The notes beneath the pieces were generated by a model. It saw only the letters and a list, made by a program, of their open reading frames with translations. It was not told the DNA's origin and made no database searches. DNA of 64,000 nt from assembly GCA_900129675.1 (NCBI GenBank), contig FSRD01000001.1, positions 5,321,501 through 5,385,500 of the forward strand. Reading direction: 5' to 3'. Positions 1,533-8,103 of this stretch are shown in pieces; the stretch's first letter is position 1, and each line of letters starts with the position of its first letter. The stretch comes from Bradyrhizobium erythrophlei. Its GTDB lineage: Bacteria; Pseudomonadota; Alphaproteobacteria; Rhizobiales; Xanthobacteraceae. The position numbers were made by a program, and so were the translations under genes.

Positions 1533-1975
1533 TAGAGTGGCAAGACTTTCCTTGGCTAAACGCGTTGGCGTCGGCGGCGAGGTCAGCCATTGCTCGCGCT
1601 CACATCGCGCGCACCGCCTTTGTGTACGAAATGGTACATAATTTAGGGCGATGCGATGAATTGCAAATATCCTCACATCGAGCCGTCGCGGACATCACGT
1701 CATCATCGCGACACGGTGCAAGCCGCATCGCCGCGATCGGCCGGCATCCGAAACCCTCAACAATACCTGACATACAGGTCTATGCGGCTGTACGCAGATG
1801 GTAGGATTCTGCCCAACCAAAAGCGCTATGTGTCGATCTCGTTCATGAAGATGAATGGAACTCGATGAGATGTTTCGCGTTTTATGGCAGAATGGCAAAG
1901 GTAACCCTTGCGCGCCGGTTTCGCCGAGGGCACGCTTGGCAAGCGATTTCACAAAACTTACGGAGGGATGCGACC
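1533..1975. other. intergenic stretch without a recognised gene
   Basis: No convincing gene is seen in these 443 bases. A small inverted repeat TGTAC-6-GTACA lies at 1623-1638 next to an AT-rich ATAATTT and could be an operator or promoter element for the Gly/Cys-rich gene downstream. This is a weak, purely visual call. Confidence 0.3.
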
Positions 1976-2563
1976 ATGTCACGGGTCAAGCAAGCCTCGA
2001 AGCAGAAACGCACAACAAAAGCCGCCGCCGTGAAGGCGCTGGGTGCCGCCGGACTGAGTTTTTCGCTGGTGGGTAGTGCATCCGCATCCACAATGCCCAC
2101 TGCCGGTATCCCGCAATCTGACAATACCTCGCCAAATCAGCGCTTCGTTCTTGACGAAGAGGAAATGGCTGACGTCAGTCTCGCCACGTTCTATGTCTTC
2201 GATAGGGAAAACTTTGGCAGCGGCGTGCAGCTAGCCCGCGGATGCGGTGGTGGCGGCGGCGGGTGTGGCCATGGTGGCGGTGGTTGCGGCGGATGCGGCC
2301 ATGGTGGCGGCGGGTGCGGCGGGTGCGGCCATGTTGGCGGCGGGTGCGGCCATGGTGGCGGCGGGTGTGTCGGCCTCCGTGGTTGCGGCGGTGGCGGATT
2401 TGTTAGCTGCCGAGGTTGCGGTGGCTTCCGTGGTTGCCGTGGCTTCCGTGGTTGCGGTTGCGGCGGCTGCGGAGTTGGCATCTGGTTCGATGACGACATC
2501 GGGTTCGGTGGCTGGGGGGACGGTGGCTGCTGCGCATCCTGGGGAGCGTGCCGCCCGTGCTAA
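1976..2563 (+). CDS. Gly/Cys/His-rich secreted repeat protein, candidate RiPP precursor or metal binder
   Basis: A 195-residue protein. The ATG at 1976 is chosen over an in-frame ATG at 1865 because CGGAGGG lies just upstream and because the translation then begins with a basic signal-type N-terminus (MSRVKQASKQKR, hydrophobic KALGAAGLSFSLVGSASA). Residues about 40-85 form an acidic, conserved-looking segment containing DEEEMADVSLATFYVFDREN. From about residue 85 the protein is mostly Gly, Cys, His and Arg, built from CGHGGGGCGG units and then RGCxGFRGC units, with 19 cysteines, ending CCASWGACRPC. This leader-plus-repetitive-core plan resembles ribosomally made, enzymatically modified peptides in Rhizobiales; that is inference, because no maturase gene lies in the window. 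A Cys/His metal-binding surface protein is the alternative. Confidence 0.65.
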   Translation: MSRVKQASKQKRTTKAAAVKALGAAGLSFSLVGSASASTMPTAGIPQSDNTSPNQRFVLDEEEMADVSLATFYVFDRENFGSGVQLARGCGGGGGGCGHGGGGCGGCGHGGGGCGGCGHVGGGCGHGGGGCVGLRGCGGGGFVSCRGCGGFRGCRGFRGCGCGGCGVGIWFDDDIGFGGWGDGGCCASWGACRPC

Positions 2564-5548: not shown

Positions 5549-6376
5549 GTGATCCCCGCACTGATCATTGTCTTCCGCGAAGTCTTCGAGGCCGGCCTTA
5601 TCGTCGGCATCGTGCTGGCGGTGACGCGCCCGGTGCCGCATCGCAATCGCTGGATCGGCGGCGGCGTGCTGGCCGGCGTTCTGCTGGCCTGCGTCGTCGC
5701 TGCCTTTGCCGGCGCGCTGTCGAATCTGTTTGCGGGCATGGGGCAGGAGCTGTTCAACGCCGCGATCCTTAGCCTCGCGGTGGTGATGCTGACCTGGCAC
5801 AATGTCTGGATGGCGCGTCACGGCAGCGAACTGGCCGGTGAACTGCGCAGAGCGGGGCGGGCGGTGGTCGAAGGATCGAAATCGCTGCTGGCGCTCGCGA
5901 TCGTGGTCGGCGTCGCGGTGCTGCGCGAGGGCAGCGAGGTCGTGCTGTTCCTGTATGGCGTGCTCGCCGCCGGCAGCGACACTTCGTGGAGCGTCGCGCT
6001 CGGCGGTTTTGCCGGGCTCGCGCTCGGCGCCGTCATTTGCATGCTGACCTATTTTGGCCTGGTGCGCATTCCCATGCGGAAATTGTTCACGACGACGACG
6101 GTGCTGATCGCGCTGCTGGCGGCCGGCATGGCGGCGCAGGCGGCGGCCTTCCTGGAAAAGGCCAACTGGCTGACGGCGATGGACAACGTCGTCTGGGATT
6201 CAGGCTGGATCCTGTCGGATACCAGCATTCCCGGCCGCGCGCTGCACACCCTGATCGGCTACACTGACCAGCCGACGGAAATGCAGCTCACGGTCTATCT
6301 GGCGATCCTGGCGGTGACGTTTGTGCTGATGCGGCTCTACGGCGCGCCGGCGAAGGCGGCGGCGATAAGAAGCTAG
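5549..6376 (+). CDS. FTR1 family high-affinity iron permease
   Basis: A 275-residue, seven-helix inner-membrane protein that moves oxidised ferrous-derived iron into the cell. Both REXXE motifs that define the family are present: REVFE at residues 10-14 and REGSE at 126-130. Translation starts at GTG 5549; no better ATG exists ahead of the first REXXE helix, so the start is firm. Together with the preceding cupredoxin and cytochrome b561 it makes a three-gene iron uptake cluster. A P19/FtrA-type periplasmic protein and the FtrD ferredoxin of the full system are not present here. Confidence 0.9.
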   Translation: MIPALIIVFREVFEAGLIVGIVLAVTRPVPHRNRWIGGGVLAGVLLACVVAAFAGALSNLFAGMGQELFNAAILSLAVVMLTWHNVWMARHGSELAGELRRAGRAVVEGSKSLLALAIVVGVAVLREGSEVVLFLYGVLAAGSDTSWSVALGGFAGLALGAVICMLTYFGLVRIPMRKLFTTTTVLIALLAAGMAAQAAAFLEKANWLTAMDNVVWDSGWILSDTSIPGRALHTLIGYTDQPTEMQLTVYLAILAVTFVLMRLYGAPAKAAAIRS

Positions 6377-6460
6377 AGCGTGATGGATTTCGGTTTAATC
6401 GGCGCCACCGGTCGGACTACCTCGCCCGTTCGCGGGGAGAGGCCAAATCCAACAGCAGTC

Positions 6461-6597
6461 GTCATACCCCGCGAAAGCGGGTATCCAGTACGCCGCGGCT
6501 TCTTGGTTTCATCGCTGACGTCTCTGGAATACTGGGTCGCCCGGTCATAGGCGAGCGTAAGCGACGCCCTCCTTCGGACGGCTATGCCGGGCGATGA
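6461..6597. repeat. palindromic intergenic repeat (GTCATACCCCG type)
   Basis: It begins GTCATACCCCGCGAAAGCGG and ends in GGGCGATG, with inner TATCCAGTACGCCG and TCTCTGGAATACTGGG segments. This matches the layout of common bradyrhizobial intergenic repeats recalled from other genomes. It fills most of the gap between the FTR1 gene and purB. Confidence 0.55.
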
Positions 6598-6649
6598 AAG
6601 CTGTGGTTGCCGACCTGCCGCGGGGAGAGGCGAAGGCTTCTGCTTCGCC

Positions 6650-7957
<1,308 letters not shown>

Positions 7958-8103
7958 GGTCGACTCTCGGCAATTGTTTTTTACGCCGCGCTTTAACAGA
8001 GCCGCCCGGGTGAGACAAACCTTGGGGTCGGGGGTCGGGGGCCGGGGTGCGAGGCGCCCGGGCCGTCCGCCCGCGCAGGCTCGCAGTCACGAAATATTGA
8101 GTA

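Follow-up and report, generated by a model that had tools for sequence, protein, structure and literature searches.

The window, the whole 64,000-nucleotide stretch of Bradyrhizobium erythrophlei DNA that was analysed, carries on its forward strand an open reading frame that we assign to a probable peptide precursor. The features of the locus, in window coordinates, are as follows.

1841..1855, forward strand: dyad GTTCATGAAGATGAA (TTCAT-N4-ATGAA), 15 bp, a putative operator lying 135 bp upstream of the start codon (genome site counts).
1962..1966, forward strand: ribosome-binding site GGAGG (sequence; same motif in relatives).
1976..2563, forward strand: probable LAP/TOMM-type precursor peptide gene, 195 aa, stray and unlinked to maturase genes (translation, paralogues, relatives).
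1976..2086, forward strand: signal-peptide-like N-terminus, residues 1-37, with a basic n-region, a hydrophobic stretch and A35-S36-A37 (composition only).
2150..2212, forward strand: conserved segment, residues 59-79 (LDEEEMADVSLATFYVFDREN), a putative cyclodehydratase docking site (conservation in 85 members).
2243..2560, forward strand: core, residues 90-195, with 19 Cys, mostly Gly-Cys, predicted thiazole sites (residue counts).
2528..2560, forward strand: conserved C-terminal motif CCxSWGxCRxC (pattern match in 80 of 85 members).

Translation of 1976-2563 gives 195 amino acids and a stop. The first-pass annotation had described a signal sequence, an acidic segment, a Gly/Cys core of more than 100 residues with 19 cysteines and the C-terminus CCASWGACRPC, and all of these are seen in the translation, the signal by its composition. 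Residues 60-79 read DEEEMADVSLATFYVFDREN, and the 106 residues of the core (90-195) comprise 53 Gly, 19 Cys, 6 Arg and 4 His, with every cysteine of the protein lying inside the core; CGHGGGGC units are present. A longer in-frame ATG occurs at 1865, upstream of the 1976 start. We place the start at 1976 because this position is common to the family: the upstream consensus of 35 copies without a neighbouring YcaO gene (unlinked copies) ends AGGaTGCGACCATG, where capitals mark at least 85% conservation, and a GGAGG no more than 20 nt from the start is seen in the window copy and in relatives of both kinds, unlinked (19 of 33) and linked (43 of 47).

Scans of the window protein against NCBIfam, Pfam and PHROGs returned nothing above cut-off. 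PHROGs gave a match to one PHROG of unknown function (E 0.025), the sole NCBIfam match, to an unrelated model, fell well short of the cut-off (E 0.25), and the NCBIfam precursor models for heterocycloanthracin, NHLP, Nif11 and cyanobactin did not match. Searching the PDB with a family-like leader peptide gave weak matches to calmodulin and centrin, at E 0.19 and above. When seven neighbours of the gene in the window were compared by blastp with the frames flanking the relatives at 80 loci, none had a match at E 1e-20, and we thus recognised no neighbourhood in common.

The 11.7-Mb genome, in four contigs, encodes five paralogues including the window copy. The N-terminal part is kept in the other four, ownC3 (C3:1385187), own787 (C4:7876372), own674 (C4:6749420) and own637 (C4:6377544), with E values from 3e-51 to 4e-14; all five have the leader in common and differ in their cores. 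In own674 and own637 the core is short, with four Cys, and the tail is rich in Pro, features that suit a polythiazole poorly. Their loci (L094, 9831-10214, reverse strand; L095, 9939-10322, forward strand) contain a common 763-bp block of 96% identity at two places on C4, as if from a recent duplication with little flanking DNA.

With one genome scanned per species, 99 relatives were detected and 80 of them kept; with the five own copies these form a set of 85 members. The relatives are mostly from Bradyrhizobium, the rest coming from Xanthobacteraceae, from Hyphomicrobiales, from Alphaproteobacteria or Proteobacteria MAGs, and from one MAG labelled Opitutaceae. In a class-wide draw of 385 genomes the family was seen only in the own genome. 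Across the 85 members the leader falls into three parts, a basic and hydrophobic stretch with A-x-A, a variable linker, and residues 59-79. The hydrophobic stretch is followed by [ASTV]-x-A in 84 members, with A35, S36 and A37 conserved at 94%, 96% and 99%. In the third part L59, E62, E63, D66, V67, S68, L69, A70, T71, F72, F75, D76 and E78 are each 95-100% conserved. The first-pass annotation had asked whether conservation of the segment around residues 60-80 is independent of the repeat and whether copies with different cores contain it. Both proved to be so: mean identity to the consensus is 86% over residues 59-80 and 53% over residues 41-58, and the segment is common to the five paralogues and their relatives.

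Leaders are free of Cys in 83 of the 85 members, and the cores contain a median of 14 Cys (range 4-21), with Gly preceding 866 of the 1250 core cysteines. The five members in which the CCxSWGxCRxC-type end is missing are L015 and L020, which run off the contig end, and L013, own674 and own637, which differ.

The enzymes likely to act on these peptides were recognised beside many of the relatives. In 47 of the 80 loci, tblastn detected a fused E1/YcaO cyclodehydratase gene starting 494-1002 nt past the precursor start, in the same orientation in all 47, and in 44 of these it is followed by a SagB/ThcOx azoline dehydrogenase gene. The remaining three (L050, L058, L061) have contigs that end inside the YcaO gene. 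Among the 33 loci without YcaO, three (L015, L020, L053) end less than 650 bp past the precursor start and so cannot be judged. The own genome has one YcaO and one SagB gene, adjacent to each other beside own787, and the window gene lies 2.55 Mb from this pair on the same contig. The first-pass annotation had suggested a RiPP precursor with a conserved leader and an enzyme acting from elsewhere, and that view is supported here.

The own YcaO protein (762 aa) passes TIGR03604 narrowly, at 222.7 bits against a cut-off of 219.25, and the same polypeptide matches TIGR03882, the E1-like or leader-binding C component, at 147.5 bits (cut-off 36.9). Its residues 31-757 align with LynD (E 8.8e-139); a winged-helix match at residues 33-107 scores 18.1 bits, below the Pfam cut-off of 24.1. 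The own SagB protein (489 aa) scores 181 bits against TIGR03605 (cut-off 78.4) and aligns over residues 126-481 with the cyanobactin oxidase CyaGox (E 1.1e-49), with the WKY motif kept. The earlier suggestion of enzyme-installed crosslinks on Cys or aromatic residues does not agree with this enzyme pair, for which the expected chemistry is conversion of Cys to thiazoline and then to thiazole.

Whether a YcaO gene is co-inherited with the precursor, as had also been suggested, was examined in 195 genomes of the genus, 86 of which contain the family, with 138 copies in total and two to seven copies in 23 genomes. A long YcaO (295 bits or more, a threshold chosen once the table had been seen) is present in 85 of the 86 precursor genomes and in 2 of the 109 others, which bears out the suggestion (Fisher p 5e-52, a statistic that ignores the relatedness of the genomes). 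Counting any YcaO, the figures are 86 of 86 and 34 of 109. G474, the only one of the 86 to lack a long YcaO, shows a fragmentary YcaO where a contig ends. Two genomes without a detected precursor, G445 and G478, have a long YcaO of 339-344 bits, possibly belonging to another LAP system.

One copy lies beside the maturase genes in 84 of the 86 precursor genomes, giving 84 linked copies; the other 54 copies, in 25 genomes, are unlinked like the window copy, meaning that no YcaO lies within 4 kb on the same contig, a state that draft contig breaks can mimic. In two drafts, G474 and G411, the sole precursor copy is unlinked, and a contig break may explain this.

In a leader tree of the 85 sequences, 34 copies without YcaO in the available DNA, including the window copy, form one group (SH-aLRT 96). 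Two of its members, L015 and L020, are too near a contig end for YcaO linkage to be judged, and the tree labels L038 and L045 wrongly as unlinked and L053 as undetermined, all three of which lie outside the group. The tree has few columns, so its finer branching order is unsure. By eye, sub-groups of the 34 copies differ in core type. Both own674 and own637 fall outside the group.

Upstream alignments revealed a conserved island, GTTCATSAAGATGAA, containing the inverted repeat TTCAT-N4-ATGAA approximately 130 bp before the start. Of the copies scored, 27 of the 47 linked and 16 of the 37 unlinked ones have this dyad upstream when at most one mismatch to one consensus is allowed, and no site was seen in 1377 stretches of 300 bp taken at random from these loci; L069 was left out of the scoring as it has too little upstream DNA. 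The upstream regions of the other 21 of the 37 unlinked copies, including own674 and own637, have at least two mismatches, and shared control is therefore not general. At the same threshold the own genome contains three sites, before the window copy, ownC3 and the YcaO-linked own787, and one site for a reversed control pattern. The match at these three precursors is by construction, and the result lies in the absence of further sites. We also considered the dyad as part of a small upstream ORF and rejected this, as many linked loci have C instead of G at position 7 and so lack the ATG that the window dyad contains.

Across the 195 genomes there are 82 exact dyad sites in 66 genomes, compared with one for the reversed pattern, and 60 of the 66 contain a precursor. 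Of these sites, 67 lie 124-187 bp upstream of a precursor. Fifteen are not before a detected precursor: one stands, intact, before a disrupted precursor (L132, genome G399), which suggests that stray copies are gained and lost, and the 14 found elsewhere we take, by eye, to be chance or coding sites. Five of the 14 (L130, L131, L134, L139, L142) are apparently one stretch, with the same 260 bases after the site, in genomes without a detected precursor.

We consider it highly probable that the window gene encodes a stray LAP/TOMM RiPP precursor served in trans by the only YcaO and SagB of the genome. Other products could be imagined for such a protein. A secreted, unmodified Gly/Cys/His-rich protein that binds Cu or Zn outside the cell through free thiols and His would be consistent with the signal-like N-terminus and its conserved A-x-A, with the CGHGGGGC units and with a frame 3 kb downstream of the gene, named by eye as an FTR1-like permease. 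The same leader is found just upstream of YcaO in 47 of 80 loci, with SagB in 44, the family tracks the long YcaO across the genus, and the cores of ownC3 and own787 contain no His, all of which makes a metal-binding protein quite improbable. The peptide might instead be a substrate of another RiPP maturase, either an MNIO enzyme (PF05114) of the bufferin or methanobactin type or a radical-SAM/SPASM enzyme. Bufferin-type MNIO substrates carry signal peptides and Cys-rich cores, and the own genome has four MNIO genes and 28 radical-SAM matches, 26 of them above cut-off. As a control in the same 195 genomes, however, the distribution of MNIO does not follow that of the family (49 of 86 precursor genomes, 89 of 109 others), none of the four MNIO places is within 150 kb of a precursor, and by eye no radical-SAM protein was recognised in neighbour clusters 1-11; we regard this assignment as highly improbable. 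The MNIO genes themselves (C4:4084745, C4:6223663, C3:636704 and C4:8543286) indicate that other modified peptides are possible in this genome.

A separate question is whether the stray copies arose by duplication and are now in decay, neither made nor modified any longer. The disrupted copy in another genome (L132) and the unusual cores of own674 and own637 would fit such decay. In the window gene, however, the frame is intact through 106 repetitive residues, and the common start, the GGAGG and the dyad are all in place. Compared with the 20 of 80 relatives that are more than 70% identical and comparable without gaps, the window leader has dN/dS values of 0.18-0.68, a range indicative of selection on the window protein, and by eye cores resembling the window core recur in other species (L012, L018, L029, L035, L037). 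We therefore think decay unlikely.

Returning to modification in trans, we propose the following sequence of events, in which the Cys residues of the window peptide are predicted to become thiazoles. Transcription of the window gene would be coupled to that of the maturase operon through the conserved dyad, presumably bound by a common regulator. Residues 59-79, nearly invariant in the family, may then be bound by the part of the fused cyclodehydratase that recognises leaders, as the homology of this enzyme to LynD suggests. From its family membership the YcaO domain would use ATP to cyclise each Cys on the preceding carbonyl, mostly that of Gly, to a thiazoline, and SagB/ThcOx would oxidise the thiazolines to thiazoles, up to 19 in the window core. 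The leader would finally be removed and the peptide would exit the cell, perhaps by means of the signal-like N-terminus. Antibacterial action is a common role of the LAP class, and by analogy with that class activity against competing bacteria is our likeliest guess for the product.

The broader proposal is tentative, and we would stop just short of favouring it. In it, the LAP precursors of Bradyrhizobium would make up a dispersed library, with as many as seven genes in a genome and at most one of them beside the enzymes, that feeds one cyanobactin-type heterocyclase/oxidase pair. Part of the library would be tied to the enzyme operon by a dedicated dyad with no other site in this genome, the signal peptides would direct general secretion in place of a dedicated exporter, and the window product would be unusually long, with up to 19 thiazoles.

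Parts of this finding were anticipated in excerpts of Haft 2009 (PMC2674419), which cite, from the list of Lee et al. 2008, a TOMM precursor of Bradyrhizobium japonicum containing Cys-Arg-Gly repeats, and which report that the Bacillus heterocycloanthracin precursor (TIGR03601) lies 1.27 Mb from the maturation genes with which it co-occurs. The B. japonicum precursor very probably belongs to the linked branch of the present family, in which the copies have GCRGC repeats. For that species the excerpts name one precursor, and do not mention unlinked copies, the dyad or a signal-like leader. Heterocycloanthracin, as described there, resembles the window system in its Cys/Gly-rich repetitive core and distant precursor, and shows that adjacency is not a strict requirement for LAP/TOMM precursors. 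It differs in having separate cyclodehydratase, scaffold and dehydrogenase genes, where the window genome has a fused C-D protein. Its leader is unrelated to the window leader, which has no TIGR03601 match.

Among the other azole systems, the cyanobactin enzymes LynD/TruD are homologous to the own cyclodehydratase over nearly its whole length. In contrast to cyanobactins, no protease or macrocyclase was recognised by eye near the own YcaO, and neither the window leader nor its core matches the cyanobactin precursor model. The microcin B17 precursor, McbA, has a Gly-rich core with Gly-Cys units that resembles the window core, and McbC is a weak match of the own dehydrogenase (E 0.00087). Here the differences are a leader of about 89 residues in the window protein, a fused cyclodehydratase and, by eye, no recognised McbEFG-like genes near the own YcaO. 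In the prochlorosins, many scattered precursors feed one enzyme. According to excerpts of one source, a single promiscuous ProcM-group enzyme acts on these peptides, which are lanthipeptides of the Nif11 family and not azoles (PMC10783134).

Closer in taxonomy is phazolicin from Rhizobium sp. Pop5, a LAP from Rhizobiales; excerpts of its description report LAP genes in multiple rhizobial genomes and a single phzEACBD cluster with its own exporter pump and the precursor inside the cluster (PMC6783444), whereas the window precursor lies far from its presumed enzymes. Thiazole-oxazole-modified microcin genes also figure in excerpts of a 2024 announcement for Bradyrhizobium sp. Ash2021 (PMC11737075), and LAP genes in Bradyrhizobium are already on record. 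The text of Cox 2015 (PMC4603692), in the part preceding its supplements, does not contain 'Bradyrhizobium' or any word beginning 'Rhizobi' or 'Alphaproteobacteria'. In the open-licence literature, among the matches listed, there was no paper on unlinked Bradyrhizobium precursors or on the dyad. The features that appear to be new are the common dyad, the signal-like leader and the dispersal of a precursor pool that reaches seven copies in a genome.

Cluster-based genome mining seeks precursors near YcaO and would miss most of the 54 unlinked copies. Should these copies be modified in trans, a single pair of enzymes would yield a series of azole peptides, related to each other yet distinct, in a genus that is abundant in soil and nodules, with the leader segment and dyad as simple handles for finding, expressing and comparing the precursors. 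Were an azole precursor to carry a signal peptide, it could also be asked, and tested, whether modification or export comes first. Around the own YcaO, inspection by eye and scans of four proteins against Pfam and NCBIfam recognised no peptide exporter, protease or immunity gene. The YcaO-linked precursor of this genome (locus L092) has beside it a two-part glyoxalase-like (VOC) gene (7155-8021, reverse strand) and an OpgC-like acyltransferase gene (5970-7121, forward strand), and in a first neighbour clustering similar VOC and OpgC-like genes were present at 38 and 20 of the 80 loci, respectively.
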